The translations under genes and the position numbers were made by a program. This document shows, piece by piece, positions 15,948 through 22,858 of a stretch of 64,000 nt of DNA. Every line of letters starts with the position of its first letter. The first letter of the stretch is position 1. The notes beneath the pieces are model-generated. The model was not told where the DNA came from, did not search any database, and worked only from the letters and a program-made list of their open reading frames with translations. Origin of the DNA: Pseudonocardia sp. SCN 73-27 (GTDB taxonomy: Bacteria > Actinomycetota > Actinomycetes > Mycobacteriales > Pseudonocardiaceae); assembly GCA_001725415.1 (NCBI GenBank), contig MEGH01000014.1, positions 22,958-86,957 of the forward strand, in the 5' to 3' direction.

Positions 15948-17099
15948 ATGAGGCGCACCCTGTTCGAGGACGACCACGAGGCGTTCCGCGACTCGTTCCG
16001 CAAGTTCGTGCAGGCCGAGATCGTGCCGCACCACGACGAGTGGGAGCAGGCCGGGATCGTCCCGCGCGAGCTGTTCGCCACCGCCGGGAAGTCGGGCTTC
16101 CTCGGGATCGAGATCCCCGAGGAGTACGGCGGCGGCGGGGTGCGCGACTTCCGGTTCAACGCAGTCATGGACGAGGAGCTCATGGGCTGCGGCGCCGCCG
16201 CGGCGGGGCTGGGCCTGTCGTTGCACAACGACATCTGCCTGCCCTACTTCATGGCCTACTGCAACGACGAGCAGCGGGCCCGGTGGCTGCCCGGCATCGC
16301 CTCCGGCGAGCTGATCACCGCGATCGCGATGACGGAGCCGGGCATCGGCTCGGACCTCGCGTCGATGTCGACGACGGCGATCCGTGACGGCGACCACTAC
16401 GTCGTCAACGGCGCCAAGACGTTCATCACCAACGGCATCAACGCCGACCTGGTCATCACCGCGGTGAAGACCGACCCGGCGGAGAAGCACAAGGGCATGT
16501 CGCTGGTGGTGCTCGAGCGCGGCATGGAGGGCTTCGAGCGGGGCCGCAACCTCGACAAGCTCGGCCAGCACGCCCAGGACACGGCCGAGCTGTCGTTCAC
16601 CGACGTCCGCGTGCCGGTGACCAACCTGCTGGGCGACCAGGAGGGGCAGGGCTTCGCCCAGCTCGTCGGCAACCTGCCGCAGGAGCGGCTGTCGATCGGT
16701 TACGCGGCCGTGGCGTCGGCCCGCTATGCGCTCGACCTGACGCTCGAGTACGTCAAGGAGCGCAAGGCGTTCGGGAAGCCGATCGGGTCGTTCCAGAACT
16801 CGCGGTTCGTGCTCGCCGAGCTCGACACCGAGATCGACATCGCCCAGCACTACGTCGACGCGTGCGTGCGCGCCCTCGACGCGGGCGAGCTGACCGCGGC
16901 CGACGCCAGCAAGGCGAAGTACTGGTGCACCGAGCTGCAGGGCCGCGTCGTCGACAAGTGCCTGCAGCTGTTCGGCGGCTACGGCTACATGACGGAGTAC
17001 CCGATCGCCCGGGCGTTCGCCGACGCCCGCATCACGCGGATCTACGGCGGCACCACCGAGATCATGAAGGAAGTCATCGGGCGGTCGCTGGGCCTGTGA
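15948..17099 (+). CDS. acyl-CoA dehydrogenase
   Basis: This 383-aa FAD enzyme has all standard motifs: AMTEPGIGSDLASMSTTA, NGAKTFITNG, YVKERKAFGKPIGSFQN, FGGYGYMTEYPIARAFAD and RIYGGTTEIMKEVIG. The last motif has Gly where short and medium-chain enzymes place the catalytic Glu (IYEGT), so the base probably sits elsewhere, as in the long-chain/isovaleryl type. That suggests a branched or long substrate. A strong GAGGAGG site precedes the ATG. Its stop overlaps the GTG of the TetR gene. Confidence 0.9.
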   Translation: MRRTLFEDDHEAFRDSFRKFVQAEIVPHHDEWEQAGIVPRELFATAGKSGFLGIEIPEEYGGGGVRDFRFNAVMDEELMGCGAAAAGLGLSLHNDICLPYFMAYCNDEQRARWLPGIASGELITAIAMTEPGIGSDLASMSTTAIRDGDHYVVNGAKTFITNGINADLVITAVKTDPAEKHKGMSLVVLERGMEGFERGRNLDKLGQHAQDTAELSFTDVRVPVTNLLGDQEGQGFAQLVGNLPQERLSIGYAAVASARYALDLTLEYVKERKAFGKPIGSFQNSRFVLAELDTEIDIAQHYVDACVRALDAGELTAADASKAKYWCTELQGRVVDKCLQLFGGYGYMTEYPIARAFADARITRIYGGTTEIMKEVIGRSLGL

Positions 17100-17764
17100 C
17101 CCCTCCGCCGCCCGACGCCGGCCCCCTGCTCGACCCCGCTGCGGCGGGACCGGGCACGGGGCTGCGCACGCGCGCCCAGCGCGCGGAGGACGGGCGGGCC
17201 CGGATTCTCGACGCGGCCGTCGGCTGCCTCGTCGCGGAGGGCTACGCCGGCGCGTCGACGCTGGCGATCCAGGCGGCGGCCGACGTGTCGCGCGGGCGGC
17301 TGCTGCACCACTTCCCGTCGCGGGACCTGCTGCTGGTCGCAGCGGCGCAACACCTTGCGACGCAACGGGTCCGCGACACCGAGGACCGGGTCCTCGCGCT
17401 CGTCGGGTCCGAGGTGCGCGGCGGCGACCGGATCGACCGAGTCGTCGAGGCGCTCTGGGCGTCGTTCCACGAACAGCACTTCTGGGCGGCCCAGGAGCTC
17501 TGGACGGCCGCCCGCACCCACCCCGAGATCGCCGCCGCGTTGCTGCCGGAGGAGCGCCGGCTCGGCGGGGTGATCCGGGCATCCATCGCACGGATGCTGG
17601 GGGAGCCCTACTCCTCGCATCCGCGGTTCCGCCAAGTGCGTGATCTTCTGCTCACGAGCATGCGCGGCGCGGCCCTCACCTACGCCTTCGACAGTCGCGA
17701 CGCCGCCTCGGATCCGATGGTCGCGCAGTGGCAGGACCTGGTCAGGACGCTGCTCTCCGACTGA
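17096..17764 (+). CDS. TetR-family transcriptional regulator
   Basis: This 222-aa protein has an N-terminal TetR helix-turn-helix (ARILDAAVGCLVAEGYAGASTLAIQAAADVSRGRLLHHFPSRDLLL, about residues 35-80) and a helical ligand-binding domain. The GTG start overlaps the preceding dehydrogenase stop (GTGA). Because it is co-translated with the beta-oxidation genes and a palindrome precedes the operon, autoregulation of that operon with an acyl-CoA as inducer is a reasonable hypothesis. The ligand is not predictable. Confidence 0.85.
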   Translation: MTPPPPDAGPLLDPAAAGPGTGLRTRAQRAEDGRARILDAAVGCLVAEGYAGASTLAIQAAADVSRGRLLHHFPSRDLLLVAAAQHLATQRVRDTEDRVLALVGSEVRGGDRIDRVVEALWASFHEQHFWAAQELWTAARTHPEIAAALLPEERRLGGVIRASIARMLGEPYSSHPRFRQVRDLLLTSMRGAALTYAFDSRDAASDPMVAQWQDLVRTLLSD

Positions 17765-17857: not shown

Positions 17858-17876
17858 TTTAGTTAGCCTGCCCTTA
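17858..17876 (+). promoter_or_regulatory. IdeR/DmdR-type iron box
   Basis: The 19-mer TTTAGTTAGCCTGCCCTTA matches the IdeR consensus TTAGGTTAGSCTAACCTAA at about 14 of 19 positions. Its core AGTTAGCCTGCCCTTA is repeated exactly at 20111-20126 before the siderophore-binding lipoprotein gene. The regulator IdeR is encoded in this window at 35612-36334. It precedes a fragmentary frame and the formyltransferase, implying derepression under iron limitation. Confidence 0.7.
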
Positions 17877-17932
17877 GGCAAGGAATGGCGACCATGCCCC
17901 GTTCGTCCTGAACGGGTCGCGGAAGGATGGCG

Positions 17933-18028
17933 ATGTCGACCTGTGCTCCCCCAGGTCCCGCCGGCCGGTTGCGCATCGGCCGCGACTACCGCGTCGAGAC
18001 CGACCCGGAGCTGCGCGGCGCGAGCTGA
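17933..18028 (+). pseudogene. remnant of a siderophore ornithine/lysine N-hydroxylase (probable internal deletion)
   Basis: A 31-codon frame with a GGAAGG ribosome site starts at ATG 17933. Its second half, GRLRIGRDYRVETDPEL, strongly resembles the conserved region near the C-terminus of L-ornithine N5-monooxygenases (CchB/PvdA/IucD family), which continue from here to a GLSxxLLS motif that is absent. The flavin and NADPH motifs are also missing. The first ten residues could be the original N-terminus, so an internal deletion is the simplest reading. It lies between an iron box and a siderophore-type formyltransferase, where cchB-like genes often stand. A short regulatory leader peptide is the alternative; the frame cannot encode an active enzyme. 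Confidence 0.55.
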
Positions 18029-18048
18029 GCGGCGCACCTGCCGAACCT

Positions 18049-18076
18049 CGGCGGGCCCGGCATCCCGGGCCCGCCG
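18049..18076 (+). terminator. strong GC hairpin before the formyltransferase
   Basis: CGGCGGGCCCGG and CCGGGCCCGCCG form a perfect 12-bp stem with loop CATC. It lies 20 nt after the remnant stop and 49 nt before the formyltransferase ATG. It could be an intrinsic terminator or attenuator that reduces read-through from the iron-box promoter. Confidence 0.5.
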
Positions 18077-18125
18077 TCGCACGTCCCGGTACCGCGCCGG
18101 GGCCGAGGAACGAGGAGATGTCCGC

Positions 18126-19079
18126 ATGCGCGTGGTGTGCTTCGGCTACATGACGTGGGGGCGCCGCACCATCGAGGCCGTGCTCGACGCCGGCCACGAG
18201 GTGCCGCTGGTCGTGACCCACCCCGACGGCACCGACGCCTACGAGAAGATCTTCAACGAGTCCGTCGCCGAACTCGCCGCCGACCACGGCATCCCGCTGC
18301 TGGTGCGCAACCGTGCCGAGGACGTCGAGGTCACGGCAGCGATCACCGCTGCTGAGGCAGACGTCATGGTGGTGTCCAACTGGCGCACCTGGCTGCCGCC
18401 CGAGGTCTACTCGATCCCGCGGCTGGGCACGCTCAACGTCCATGACGCGCTGCTGCCCGCCTACGCCGGGTTCGCGCCGTTGAACTGGGCGCTGATCAAC
18501 GACGAGGCCGAGGTCGGCGTCACGGCGCACATGATGAACGCCGAGTTCGACGCGGGCGACGTCGTGCTGCAGTGGGCGACCCCGATCAGCGACGACGACA
18601 CGATCGTCGAGCTGTTCGACCGCACGCTCGCGATGTTCGGCCCGATCACCGTGGAAGGTCTCGCGCTGCTGGAGTCGGGGCGCACCGACTGGCCGGCGCA
18701 GGACCGCCGTCGCGCCTCGTACTTCCACCGGCGCACCGACGAGGAGAACCGCATCGACTGGGCCTGGCCGGCGCGTGACATCTTCAACCTGGTCCGCGCC
18801 CAGGTCGACCCCTATCCGAACTCGTACTGCTACCGCGGTACCGAGCGGATCCGCATCCTGTCGGCGTCGGTCACCGACGACGCGGTCGGCGGCACCCCGG
18901 GCCGGGTCCTGATCCGGCGCGGGACGGGCGTCGTCGTCGTCGCGGGCGCCGACGCCCGCCGCGGCCGCAACCCGGGGGTGCTGATCCACCGGGTGCGGCT
19001 CGACGACGGCCGCGAGCTCGACGCCGCCGACTACTTCCCGCGGATGGGCGAGTACCTGACCGCCCACCCGCGGGAGTAG
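18126..19079 (+). CDS. formyltransferase, siderophore hydroxyornithine type
   Basis: This 317-aa protein belongs to the 10-formyltetrahydrofolate-dependent formyltransferase family. The catalytic trio is visible as Asn and His in NVHDALLPAYAGFAPLNWAL and Asp in FDAGDVVLQW, followed by a C-terminal OB-like domain. It resembles methionyl-tRNA formyltransferase, but context favours siderophore synthesis: an iron box upstream, a siderophore-binding lipoprotein gene converging, and the remnant of an N-hydroxylase. Such enzymes (for example CchA of coelichelin) formylate N5-hydroxyornithine. A GAGGAG site precedes the ATG. Without an intact hydroxylase nearby, its present substrate is uncertain. 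If no other fmt gene existed in the genome it would have to be reconsidered as the housekeeping enzyme. Confidence 0.75.
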   Translation: MRVVCFGYMTWGRRTIEAVLDAGHEVPLVVTHPDGTDAYEKIFNESVAELAADHGIPLLVRNRAEDVEVTAAITAAEADVMVVSNWRTWLPPEVYSIPRLGTLNVHDALLPAYAGFAPLNWALINDEAEVGVTAHMMNAEFDAGDVVLQWATPISDDDTIVELFDRTLAMFGPITVEGLALLESGRTDWPAQDRRRASYFHRRTDEENRIDWAWPARDIFNLVRAQVDPYPNSYCYRGTERIRILSASVTDDAVGGTPGRVLIRRGTGVVVVAGADARRGRNPGVLIHRVRLDDGRELDAADYFPRMGEYLTAHPRE

Positions 19080-19080
19080 C

Positions 19081-20064
19081 TCAGGTTCCCTGGTAGGCCT
19101 GGGCCAGCTGGGGGACCACCGCGTCGAGTGCCGTCGGCAGGCTCAGCGGGCTGCCGAAGCCGAGCGCGGACGCCACGTCGGTGTCGAACCCACCGAGGTA
19201 GACGACGTGGCCGTTCTTCACCGCGTTCAGGCCCTGGAACAGCCGGTCGCCCGCGAGCTGCTCGCGGGTGGGCCCGAAGACGACGATCGCGTCCTTGTCG
19301 ATCTCGGAGATCCGTTCCGGGCTCAGCGGCGTGGGGTCGCCCTTGCCGCCCACGTCGAGACCGAGGCCGGTGAACACCTGGGTCCGCAGGTCGTCGGTGC
19401 CGAGCTTGTAGATCTGACCGTCGATGACGAAGTCGATGCCGAGGGTCTTGCCGGCGAACCGAGGGTTGTCGGCGCGGGCCTTCGCGAACCGGGCCTCGAC
19501 GTCGGCGACCGCCTGCTCGGCCTGCGCGCTGCGGCCCAGGACCTTGCCGGTCAGCCGGGTCTGGTCCTGCCAGCCCATCGCCGCGTTGTCGGCGGTGGGC
19601 TGGGCGACGACCGGCGCGATCCGCGACAGCGTGTCGTAGTCGCTCTGGGTCATGAACGAGTAGATGCCGAGGATCAGGTCCGGCTGCAGCGCGGCGACGC
19701 GTTCGACATCGATCTCGGTGCCGCCGACCTGCGGCGGGTCGGCGCCGTTGAGCGCGGCCTGCGCCCAGGGGCGCTTCGACTCGTCGTACTCGCCGATGTT
19801 GTCGCGGACACCGACCGGCACGACCCCGAGGGCGAGCGCGAAGTCGACGTCGTTGAACCCGACGGTGACGACGCGCGTCGGCTCGGCGGGGATCGTGGTC
19901 TCGCCGAAGGCGTGCCGGATGGTCACGGGGAACGTGGCGGCGCCGGGTGGCGCGGAGCCGGGTGGTGCGGTGCTGGGCTGTTCGCTGCTGGAGCAGGCGG
20001 CGAGCGCGACGGCCAGGACGGCGGTGAGCGCGGCCGCCAGCAGGCGGACGGGGGAGCGGGTCAT
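19081..20064 (-). CDS. iron-siderophore ABC transporter substrate-binding lipoprotein
   Basis: This 327-aa exported lipoprotein begins with a signal peptide ending in the lipobox ALAAC (Cys24), followed by a Ser/Pro-rich spacer. The rest is a FecB/FhuD-like periplasmic-binding fold: TIPAEPTRVVTVGFNDVDFALALGVVPVG, VERVAALQPDLILG, and a C-terminal DAIVVFGPT...AVKNGHVVYLG. It would capture ferric hydroxamate siderophores at the cell surface and pass them to a permease not encoded here. ATG 20064 follows a GGGAGG site; ATG 20076 is less likely. The iron box at 20111-20126 lies about 47 nt upstream. The stop lies 1 nt from the convergent formyltransferase stop. Confidence 0.88.
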   Translation of the reverse strand: MTRSPVRLLAAALTAVLAVALAACSSSEQPSTAPPGSAPPGAATFPVTIRHAFGETTIPAEPTRVVTVGFNDVDFALALGVVPVGVRDNIGEYDESKRPWAQAALNGADPPQVGGTEIDVERVAALQPDLILGIYSFMTQSDYDTLSRIAPVVAQPTADNAAMGWQDQTRLTGKVLGRSAQAEQAVADVEARFAKARADNPRFAGKTLGIDFVIDGQIYKLGTDDLRTQVFTGLGLDVGGKGDPTPLSPERISEIDKDAIVVFGPTREQLAGDRLFQGLNAVKNGHVVYLGGFDTDVASALGFGSPLSLPTALDAVVPQLAQAYQGT

Positions 20065-20110
20065 GGGGCCTCCCATCGACGGTGAGTGGTTCGTCCCTTC
20101 CGTCCGCTGA

Positions 20111-20126
20111 AGTTAGCCTGCCCTTA
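20111..20126 (-). promoter_or_regulatory. IdeR/DmdR-type iron box of the lipoprotein gene
   Basis: The 16-mer AGTTAGCCTGCCCTTA is identical to the core of the iron box at 17861-17876. It sits 47 nt upstream of the lipoprotein ATG and its end coincides with the TAA stop (20124-20126) of the decarboxylase gene, so the box is embedded in the end of the upstream gene. Confidence 0.7.
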
Positions 20127-21620
20127 TGGCTGTGGTGGCACGCAGGTCCCCCGAACCGCCGCGGCCTCGGCCCGCAGCCGGTCCCACAGGGCCTCGACGT
20201 GCGGCGCCTCCGTGGCGACGCCTCCGACGGCGATCCTGATCACGTACCGCTGGTCGAGGACCGTGTGGGTGACGAACGCGGCACCGGAGGCGTTGACGCG
20301 TTCCAGCACGGCCCGGGTGGTCGCGTCGTCGGCGTCCCCGTCGGCCGTGGTGAACCGCAGGCACACGAGCCCGAGGGTCGGCGGCGCCGCGAGGACGACG
20401 CCCGGCTCGGCGCGCACCCGGGCAGCGAGGTCGACCGCGGCGGCGACGTGCCCGCGCAAGTGCGCCCGCAGCCCCTCCAGTCCCAGCGCGTGCACGACCG
20501 CCCACAGCTTGAGCGCCCGGAACCTCCGGCCCAGCGGCACCTGCCAGTCCCGGAAGTCGACGACCGCGCCCGACTCCGACGCGGCGTTGCGCAGGTACTC
20601 CGGCGTCACCGACAACGCCGCGGGCAGGGCCGTCGCGTCGCGCACCCACAGCAGGGACGCGTCGAACGCCGTGAGCAGCCACTTGTGGGCGTCCGTGCAG
20701 AACGAGTCGGCCAGATCGACCCCGTCGATCACGTGCCGCAACTCGGGGCACAGCCCGGCGACACCCGCCCACGCGGCGTCGACGTGCAGCCACGCGCCGT
20801 GGGCCGCCGCCACCGGCGCGATGGCGCGGACCGGGTCGACCGCGCCCGTGCCCGTCGTCCCGACGGTCGCGCACACCAGTACGGGGCGCAGCCCGGCGGC
20901 GACGTCGGCGGCCATGGCGTCGGCGAGCGCCGCGGGCGACATGGCCTGCGTCCCCGCCACGGCGTCGACGACGCACAGCGCCCGCGCCCCCAGTCCTGCG
21001 ACCCGCACAGCCTTGGCCAGCGACGAGTGCGTCTCCGCGGTGACGTAGACGCGTTCGCGGCCGTCGACGCCCGTGTCCCGCCAGCCGGGGGCCGCGCGGT
21101 GCAGCGCGGCGAGCAGCGCCACGAGTGCCGCCGACGACGCCGAGTCCTGCACGACCCCGCCGCCCCCGCCGGCGACGGTGAACGCCGCGCAGAGACCGAG
21201 GGCGTGGGCGAACCCGTCGAGCAGGACCTGCTCGGTCTCGGTGGCGGCGGGGGAGGTGGACCAGAGCATCCCCTGGGCGCCGAGGCCGCCCGAGAGCAGG
21301 TCGCCGAGCAGCGACGCCATCGAGGCGTTGGCGGGGAAGTAGCCGAAGAACGCGGGGTGCTGCCAGTGAGTGCTGCCGGGGACGACGACGCGGTCGATCT
21401 CCCCGAGCAGCGTCTCGAGGGGCTGTGCCGCCTCGGGCAGCCGGCGGCCGGGGAACGCCGCCGCGGGTCCGGTCAGTGCCGCGGCGACGTCGCCGGGCGC
21501 AACGGGCGGGACGACCGGGAGGCCGGGCAGGGCGTCGCGGTGGTCGGCGATCCAGTCGACGAACGCGTGGCCGAGGCGGCGGAACTCCTCGGGCGTCAGG
21601 TCCCGCGCGGGCACGGTCAC
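20124..21620 (-). CDS. PLP-dependent aromatic-amino-acid-type decarboxylase (group II)
   Basis: This 498-aa enzyme belongs to the group II PLP decarboxylases, which turn L-amino acids into amines. It shows HWQHPAFFGYFPANASMAS (substrate pocket typical of aromatic amino acid decarboxylases), AGGGGGVVQDSASSAALVALL, HVDAAWAGVAGLCPE, and the cofactor lysine Lys313 in FCTDAHKWLL. The GTG at 21620 has GGAG eight bases upstream; GTG 21614 and 21629 are alternatives. The siderophore lysine decarboxylase DesA belongs to the same superfamily, but the HWQHPAFFGYFPAN pattern favours an aromatic substrate. It is divergent from an MFS exporter and upstream of the iron-regulated lipoprotein. Confidence 0.85.
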   Translation of the reverse strand: MTVPARDLTPEEFRRLGHAFVDWIADHRDALPGLPVVPPVAPGDVAAALTGPAAAFPGRRLPEAAQPLETLLGEIDRVVVPGSTHWQHPAFFGYFPANASMASLLGDLLSGGLGAQGMLWSTSPAATETEQVLLDGFAHALGLCAAFTVAGGGGGVVQDSASSAALVALLAALHRAAPGWRDTGVDGRERVYVTAETHSSLAKAVRVAGLGARALCVVDAVAGTQAMSPAALADAMAADVAAGLRPVLVCATVGTTGTGAVDPVRAIAPVAAAHGAWLHVDAAWAGVAGLCPELRHVIDGVDLADSFCTDAHKWLLTAFDASLLWVRDATALPAALSVTPEYLRNAASESGAVVDFRDWQVPLGRRFRALKLWAVVHALGLEGLRAHLRGHVAAAVDLAARVRAEPGVVLAAPPTLGLVCLRFTTADGDADDATTRAVLERVNASGAAFVTHTVLDQRYVIRIAVGGVATEAPHVEALWDRLRAEAAAVRGTCVPPQP

Positions 21621-21658
21621 GGTGATCACTCCGGACGGTCGATGGTCGGCGCAATGGT

Positions 21659-21664
21659 TAGGGT
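21659..21664 (+). promoter_or_regulatory. -10 element for a leaderless MFS transcript
   Basis: TAGGGT (TANNNT form) lies 6 nt before the GTG start at 21671, and no ribosome site is present, so the mRNA probably begins at the start codon. The overlapping TTAGGGTTGCCAA (21658-21670) is also a weak match to the iron box. Confidence 0.45.
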
Positions 21665-21670
21665 TGCCAA

Positions 21671-22858
21671 GTGTCCGACACGTCCGGAGGAGCCGTCGAT
21701 CCGGACGTCCCCGACGGTGCCGCCCGGCTCCGGCTGCTCCAGCTCTCCGCGCTGACCAGCACCGTCGACCGGTTCGCCATCGCGCCACTTCTCGTCGAGA
21801 TCGCCCGCGGGTTCGACGCCTCGCTCGTCGCCGTCGCCGGCGTCGCCAGCGGCTACTTCCTCGCCTACGGCCTGATGCAGCTGGTCTGGGGCCTGCTCAG
21901 CGACCGGCTCGGGCGCGTCCGCGTCATGCGCGTCGCGCTCGCCGGGCTGGCCGTCGCCGGGCTCGCCTCGGTCCTCGCACCGAACCTCGCGGTGCTCGCC
22001 GTGTCGCGGGTCGTCGCCGGCGGTACCGCCGCCGCTCTCATCCCGACGACGCTCGTCTACGTCGGCGCCACCTGGCCCATTGCGGTCCGCCAACGGCCGT
22101 TGTCCGACCTGCTCGCCGCCTCGGCCGTCGGGACCGCGGTGGCGACGATCGGCGCCGGCCTCGTCGCCGAGCTCGTCGGCTGGCGGGCCGTCTTCGGGCT
22201 GACCGGCGCCGCCGCCGTCGTCCTGTGGTGGGCGCTGCGCCGCCTGCCCGAGCCCGACCGCCCCGACCCCGGGCCGCCGCTGCGACCGCTCAAGCTGGTC
22301 GTCCGGAGTGGCTGGGCCTGGGTGGTGCTGACGCTCGCGCTCGTCGAGGGTGCCGTCGCGCTCGGCACGCTCACCTACCTCGCGCCGTCGCTGCAGGACC
22401 AGGGCTGGTCGCCGGCGGTGGCGGGGCTCGTCGCCGCCGGCTACGGCATCGGCGCCCTCGCCACCTCACGGGTGGTGCGCCGCCTCGTCGGCCGGGTGCC
22501 ACCGGCCGGGCTCGCCGCCGTCGGCGGTGCCGTGCTGGCCGTCACCTGGGTGCCGACGACGATCTCCGTGACCGTCGTGACCGTGCTCGCGTCGGGCCTG
22601 CTGCTCGGTATCGCGTGGGCGTTCCTGCACACCACGCTGCAGACGTGGGCCACCGAGGTCGTGCCGCAGGCCCGGGCCGCGGCCGTCGCCCTCTTCGTGA
22701 CGGTCCTGTTCCTCGGCAGCTCCGTCGGCACCGCGGTCGTCGCCCCGCTGGCCGACGCCGGCGCGTTCGGCACCGTCTTCACGATCGCGCTGGTGGTGTC
22801 GGTGCCGCTCGCGGTCGTCGCCGTCATCGCCCGGGCCCGCTACGCGCGGGTCGCGTGA
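21671..22858 (+). CDS. MFS transporter
   Basis: This 395-aa protein has about twelve hydrophobic helices and the MFS motif A between helices 2 and 3 (GLLSDRLGRVRVMRVAL), placing it with the 12-helix major facilitator group (DHA1-like or EmrD-like exporters). It is divergent from the amino acid decarboxylase with starts only 51 bp apart, an arrangement that suggests export of the amine product, or of a siderophore given the surrounding iron genes. The GTG start appears leaderless. The substrate is unknown. Confidence 0.87.
   Translation: MSDTSGGAVDPDVPDGAARLRLLQLSALTSTVDRFAIAPLLVEIARGFDASLVAVAGVASGYFLAYGLMQLVWGLLSDRLGRVRVMRVALAGLAVAGLASVLAPNLAVLAVSRVVAGGTAAALIPTTLVYVGATWPIAVRQRPLSDLLAASAVGTAVATIGAGLVAELVGWRAVFGLTGAAAVVLWWALRRLPEPDRPDPGPPLRPLKLVVRSGWAWVVLTLALVEGAVALGTLTYLAPSLQDQGWSPAVAGLVAAGYGIGALATSRVVRRLVGRVPPAGLAAVGGAVLAVTWVPTTISVTVVTVLASGLLLGIAWAFLHTTLQTWATEVVPQARAAAVALFVTVLFLGSSVGTAVVAPLADAGAFGTVFTIALVVSVPLAVVAVIARARYARVA

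Follow-up and report, generated by a model that had tools for sequence, protein, structure and literature searches.

How did a siderophore locus come to keep its iron box, its formyltransferase gene and its uptake gene around a frame of only 31 codons, at a position where two close relatives carry a full-length hydroxylase gene? CchA and CchB of coelichelin are such a formyltransferase/hydroxylase pair. The question arises on contig C14 of the draft genome of Pseudonocardia sp. SCN 73-27 (G000; 99 contigs, 6.95 Mb, 99.99% complete), within a stretch of 64,000 nucleotides that we call the window. A preliminary description of the window had seen in the frame a decayed siderophore hydroxylase gene, left by an internal deletion in a strain that lost its own siderophore and uses those of others.

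Results

The 31-codon frame compared with intact hydroxylase genes

The frame encodes a 31-residue peptide followed by a stop codon (Table 1). It is preceded by a GGAAGG run resembling a ribosome site and by a second in-frame ATG at 17927, two codons upstream of its start. Residues 10-28 are identical at 15 of 19 positions to residues 361-379 of a hydroxylase encoded on contig C50 of the same genome, in which the counterpart of the retained segment is GRLSINRDYRVATDPALR. This alignment scored 74, against a best score of 49 among 2000 shuffles of the peptide. When 3590 fragments of the window were scored in the same way, a clipped copy of the remnant frame itself came out on top (59), followed by a fragment at 47. 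The peptide matched 0 Pfam families and 0 NCBIfam families, because PF13434 stops at residue 341 of the intact C50 hydroxylase, N-terminal to the retained segment; the search against PF13434 that had been recommended for the 31 residues is thus blind to this remnant.

Its identity could be settled because intact genes of relatives were available for comparison. At the position of the remnant, P. sulfidoxydans NBRC 16205 (L081; G023) carries a hydroxylase gene of 455 codons and Pseudonocardia sp. N23 (L096; indexed as G084 and, because contig positions nearly coincide, taken to be G068) one of 452 codons, where the preliminary description had expected about 430. In both, the gene lies between matching TetR and formyltransferase genes, and its promoter, start and stop region match those of the window; the gene order at the locus is alike in P. 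sulfidoxydans and the window. The TetR orthologues are 92% identical in P. sulfidoxydans and 83% in N23. Residues 1-11 of the remnant pair with the start of the P. sulfidoxydans gene and residues 9-28 with its C-terminal part, such that the 17 codons after the first 11 correspond to residues 383-399 and the last four, stop included, align with the native gene end. The deleted codons 12-382 include the whole PF13434 region of the P. sulfidoxydans protein (residues 16-361), and the remnant contains neither the FAD- nor the NADPH-binding domain. The C-terminal motif of the GLSxxLLS type is also missing (GLSSTLLS in the C50 protein, GISSTLLS in P. sulfidoxydans). Synteny and both retained segments indicate descent from a member of the PF13434 family. 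These sequence comparisons identify the frame as the pseudogene relic of an L-ornithine N5-hydroxylase gene under iron regulation, and its predicted 31-residue product cannot have hydroxylase activity.

Table 1 Features of the remnant locus in the window and the site of the C50 cluster
Feature	Position	Strand	Basis or remark
TetR-type regulator gene	17096..17764	+	Pfam TetR_N; 5' neighbour of the remnant
Iron box TTAGTTAGCCTGCCCTTA ahead of the remnant	17859..17876	+	exact pattern match
31-codon remnant of an L-ornithine N-hydroxylase gene	17933..18028	+	retained start and C-terminal segments of the intact P. sulfidoxydans gene
First 11 hydroxylase codons, kept	17933..17965	+	alignment with L081 and L096
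Junction of deletion 1, near CCCGCCGGC/CCCGCGGGC	17965..17966	+	alignment with intact genes
17 kept codons of the C-terminal region (RLRIGRDYRVETDPELR)	17966..18016	+	
Junction of deletion 2 at GAGCTGCGC, then native stop region	18008..18017	+	exact point ambiguous within the repeat
GC-rich hairpin in the spacer between remnant and formyltransferase gene	18050..18075	+	perfect; similar one in P. sulfidoxydans
CchA/Rft-like formyltransferase gene, 317 aa, intact	18126..19079	+	Formyl_trans_N and Formyl_trans_C; no internal stops
Siderophore-type substrate-binding protein gene	19081..20076	-	Peripla_BP_2; convergent with the formyltransferase gene
Iron box 5' of the binding-protein gene	20109..20126	-	pattern read on the + strand, 2 mismatches
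C50 cluster site (L043/L097)	contig C50 13857-34509		

Two in-frame deletions behind an intact iron box

Alignment with the intact genes places one deletion after the first 11 codons (about 371 codons when measured against the P. sulfidoxydans gene, 370 against that of N23), and another of about 53 codons after the 17 C-terminal codons; both keep the reading frame. The promoter, the ribosome site, these two coding segments and the native stop region survived. The proposal of an internal deletion that spared the promoter, the first codons and a C-terminal piece was therefore right as to what remains, but the loss took two events instead of one, and translation ends in the native stop region. 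Short similar stretches stand at both junctions (CCCGCCGGC/CCCGCGGGC and GAGCTGCGC). They were spotted by eye in the alignment, and matches this short are frequent in GC-rich DNA of such kind. Slippage or recombination between short repeats might have been the route of deletion; when the intact P. sulfidoxydans gene was scanned for repeats, the deletion endpoints were not among the best 20 of 24 families.

The iron box, which we take to be an operator of the IdeR/DmdR type, belongs to a pattern with a mean of 0.00 matches in 100 shuffles. A matching box precedes the intact hydroxylase gene in P. sulfidoxydans and N23, and the formyltransferase gene in P. dioxanivorans CB1190. The remnant and the formyltransferase gene are separated by a spacer of 97 bases. 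The predicted folding of this spacer as a whole has a z-score of -3.35, and that of its P. sulfidoxydans counterpart -1.31.

The formyltransferase gene and its neighbours

The formyltransferase gene (FT) is 95% identical in P. sulfidoxydans and 73-95% identical across named relatives. Its product has the N- and C-terminal Formyl_trans domains and the catalytic Asn-His-Asp triad named in PMC4786211; the corresponding N-V-H and E-F-D-A-G-D motifs were picked out by eye. No NCBIfam model scored above its cut-off on this protein, and the putative activity on N5-hydroxyornithine is suggested by gene context. G000 holds one close FT at E <= 1e-60, that of the window, the next FT-like match reaching 57 bits. 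Compared with its P. sulfidoxydans orthologue the gene has a pairwise dN/dS of 0.15, and with that of N23 one of 0.18. The window branch counts 10 synonymous and 8 replacement codon changes, whereas the P. sulfidoxydans branch counts 17 synonymous and 3 replacement changes (Fisher p = 0.07), which hints at a slight relaxation; together these sequence measures are compatible with a constraint that is ongoing and would be slightly relaxed.

The uptake gene was likewise said to have outlived the hydroxylase gene, and the binding-protein gene is indeed intact, with 95% identity in P. sulfidoxydans. In N23 it is broken (L096 6971-7380): residues 274-331 alone align, and the other frames are shifted, next to an intact hydroxylase gene and an intact FT. 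The locus thus decays piecemeal, in more than one direction among relatives. The binding-protein gene adjoins a pyridoxal-dependent decarboxylase gene (window 20124-21788, minus strand), whose P. sulfidoxydans and N23 counterparts show 84-86% identity.

A second hydroxylase at the head of an NRPS cluster

A search of G000 with the P. sulfidoxydans hydroxylase at E <= 1e-20 returned the C50 copy, 69% identical, as its sole match. This other hydroxylase gene is intact and heads a siderophore NRPS cluster of about 20.6 kb. An iron-box-like sequence precedes it. The cluster runs from a siderophore-interacting-protein-like gene through the hydroxylase, MbtH-like, binding-protein-like and NRPS genes to an exporter gene, the names of the three "-like" genes being given by eye. 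The NRPS gene encodes 4829 residues without internal stops, including five condensation-type and four adenylation domains, and all condensation-domain matches of G000 lie on C50. In the last two modules (A3 and A4) the adenylation code is DMEVVLLINK, with Glu at position 239, the code positions being assigned by motif. PMC4786211 links Glu at position 239 to oxidised ornithine. Formyl-hydroxyornithine is a putative building block of the C50 product, as judged from the FT found in the homologous cluster of G031.

The genes flanking the C50 cluster are 20.65 kb apart in G000; the interval between them measures 642 bases in P. sulfidoxydans, and in P. dioxanivorans CB1190 it measures 496. The 642-base gap holds a frame with a thioesterase-like match barely above the Pfam cut-off, and the 496-base gap a reversed MbtH-like gene; an older NRPS cluster may have left both as relics. 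The corresponding interval of N23 spans 59.5 kb with a different NRPS (G068:C28:67890-127423), so the site is variable. G031 has the flanking genes side by side on contig C65 and a homologous cluster on C87. From the fetched loci we chose 27 hydroxylase rows for a tree, in which the C50 hydroxylase clusters with those of G031, G073 and G003 (support 100/99), and those of P. sulfidoxydans and N23 stand apart (100/100); the C50 gene therefore did not arise by copying the deleted one. Taken together, the sequences support well that, compared with P. sulfidoxydans and P. dioxanivorans, the cluster has been inserted, and it was probably acquired. Two short stretches near the cluster (L097 17783-17828 and L043 10946-11068) have dozens of matches on both strands of P. 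sulfidoxydans contigs and look like dispersed palindromic repeat families.

The C50 and G031 clusters are collinear, at 76% over 15.4 kb, 78% over 3.4 kb and 80% over 1.5 kb. Between its NRPS and exporter genes G031 has an FT that is 73% identical to the window FT, and in C50 this slot is empty: the NRPS-exporter spacing between the aligned blocks is 96 bases in C50 and 986 in G031. The C50 NRPS ends in GGLT-stop and the G031 FT in GGYLT-stop, a likeness of four residues that is possibly the scar of a lost FT. FT and an exporter gene are consecutive and co-oriented in G018, G006, G071 and G083, and in other genomes the two are neighbours but divergent (e.g. G033, G013, G026, G075, G079 and G060). 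The order NRPS-FT-exporter was seen in G031 only, so the FT at C50 was either lost or never arrived.

Hydroxylase genes at the locus and elsewhere in relatives

In P. dioxanivorans CB1190 the iron box leads directly into the FT gene, with no remnant-like frame in between. No hydroxylase gene was found in 12.95 kb around this FT, and the sole one detected in the genome lies more than 3 Mb away from FT and about 6 kb or less from an NRPS region, an arrangement that fits either loss or original absence of a local hydroxylase. P. sulfidoxydans and N23, both with the local gene, have no second hydroxylase at E <= 1e-20. Among the four relatives compared closely, the local hydroxylase gene is the sole one in the two genomes that have it, and in the two that lack it a hydroxylase gene lies near an NRPS; this amounts to a pattern and not to a proof.

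Discussion

Proposed assembly of one siderophore from two loci

We consider it probable that the remnant arose by two in-frame deletions, that the C50 hydroxylase replaced the resident one and that the window FT was kept and serves the C50 cluster. The set of genes in G000 is complete only across loci, with hydroxylase and NRPS on C50 and FT on C14. It is well supported that the hydroxylase of the C50 cluster made the resident one redundant. The resident FT, in turn, would have been retained because the C50 cluster has none. Under iron starvation the window FT may then formylate hydroxyornithine supplied by the C50 hydroxylase, and a single siderophore would be assembled from the products of C14 and C50. 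The sequences are at present best explained by a G000 siderophore that would depend on C14 and C50 alike. A tentative extension, which we rate as possible but clearly less likely, is that of reciprocal loss: the C50 cluster would have entered with both hydroxylase and FT, the resident locus would have lost the hydroxylase and the newcomer the FT, leaving the two mutually dependent.

Loss of the strain's own siderophore, with uptake only of those made by others, would suit the missing local hydroxylase and the intact binding-protein gene, as the preliminary description had supposed. Against it stand the intact hydroxylase and NRPS on C50, together with MbtH-like, binding-protein and exporter genes, and the constraint still acting on FT (dN/dS of 0.15 against P. 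sulfidoxydans); we regard it as improbable, the FT being best explained as serving C50. Rather unlikely, by our estimate, is that the FT is a mere leftover heading for loss and without a present role. The somewhat raised replacement ratio on the window branch (10:8 against 17:3, p = 0.07) and the piecemeal decay of the locus in relatives, such as the broken binding-protein gene of N23, would agree with this, but the FT frame is full-length and stop-free with both domains, its iron box is intact, and in P. dioxanivorans an FT likewise persists behind an iron box with no local hydroxylase.

The 31-codon frame itself could be functional, either as a small peptide or as a translated leader that would hold ribosomes on the FT transcript and so avert polarity. 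Both deletions are in frame, which would happen about 1 in 9 times at random, and promoter, ribosome site and stop region are all kept. However, when 62 genus genomes were searched at the DNA level with the 291-base remnant query (12 candidates scored per genome), only G000 matched it in full, P. sulfidoxydans and G068 giving piecewise matches, so the same short frame in relatives, which had been named in advance as the result that would speak for a genuine peptide, was not found in this set. The 97 bases and the strong hairpin before FT also argue against a leader, as does the P. dioxanivorans FT, which follows its iron box directly; a functional frame hence seems to us very unlikely. Least credible is an assembly error concealing a whole hydroxylase gene. 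G000 is a draft in 99 contigs, but two separate junctions fall within the gene and the kept pieces follow their original order; no other place in the assembly contains the missing stretch, the 69% C50 copy being the sole match at E <= 1e-20; and the assembly is 99.99% complete.

Relation to known systems

P. sulfidoxydans and N23 resemble the CchA/CchB arrangement in that a hydroxylase gene and then a formyltransferase gene follow an iron box. The window differs from it, since only 31 codons stand for the hydroxylase gene and the locus has no NRPS next to it, all condensation domains being on C50. The rhodochelin system, in which the formyltransferase Rft acts from a distant locus, is a precedent for such supply in trans. 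PMC5550956 describes an NRPS cluster for rhodochelin of Rhodococcus jostii RHA1 with further genes outside it, and cites a 2011 paper whose title says that rhodochelin requires three independent gene clusters. G000 is similar in having siderophore genes, formyltransferase included, spread over separate loci, with supply in trans being presumed for G000. Unlike rhodochelin, G000 displays the remnant of a deleted local hydroxylase gene and a probable cluster acquisition. At a siderophore cheater locus described in PMC12971057, Bordetella petrii kept transporters and an NRPS fragment. The window is comparable in having a broken biosynthetic gene beside a retained uptake gene, but G000 keeps a complete-looking biosynthetic cluster elsewhere.

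Scattered siderophore genes are already known, and the window locus adds a well-resolved case in which familiar processes are at work; it does not represent a novel kind of system. It offers a dated, stepwise view of how biosynthetic genes become scattered: across four relatives, a single site shows the hydroxylase whole, cut down to 31 codons or missing, together with a replacement-bearing cluster that has arrived or is absent. Genome mining that proceeds cluster by cluster would label the window locus a remnant and overlook the possible dependence of C50 on the window FT.

Separation of these genes extends to further members of the genus. G034, G022, G009 and G080 each have FT and hydroxylase on one contig with 250 kb or more between them, so split loci are not rare. 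FT was found in 38 of 62 genus genomes and the hydroxylase in 50 of 60, which means that some hydroxylase-bearing genomes manage without such an FT. In G030 (C90:145498-148509) the hydroxylase appears as two separate matches and the adjoining exporter match is partial; this locus may also be decaying.
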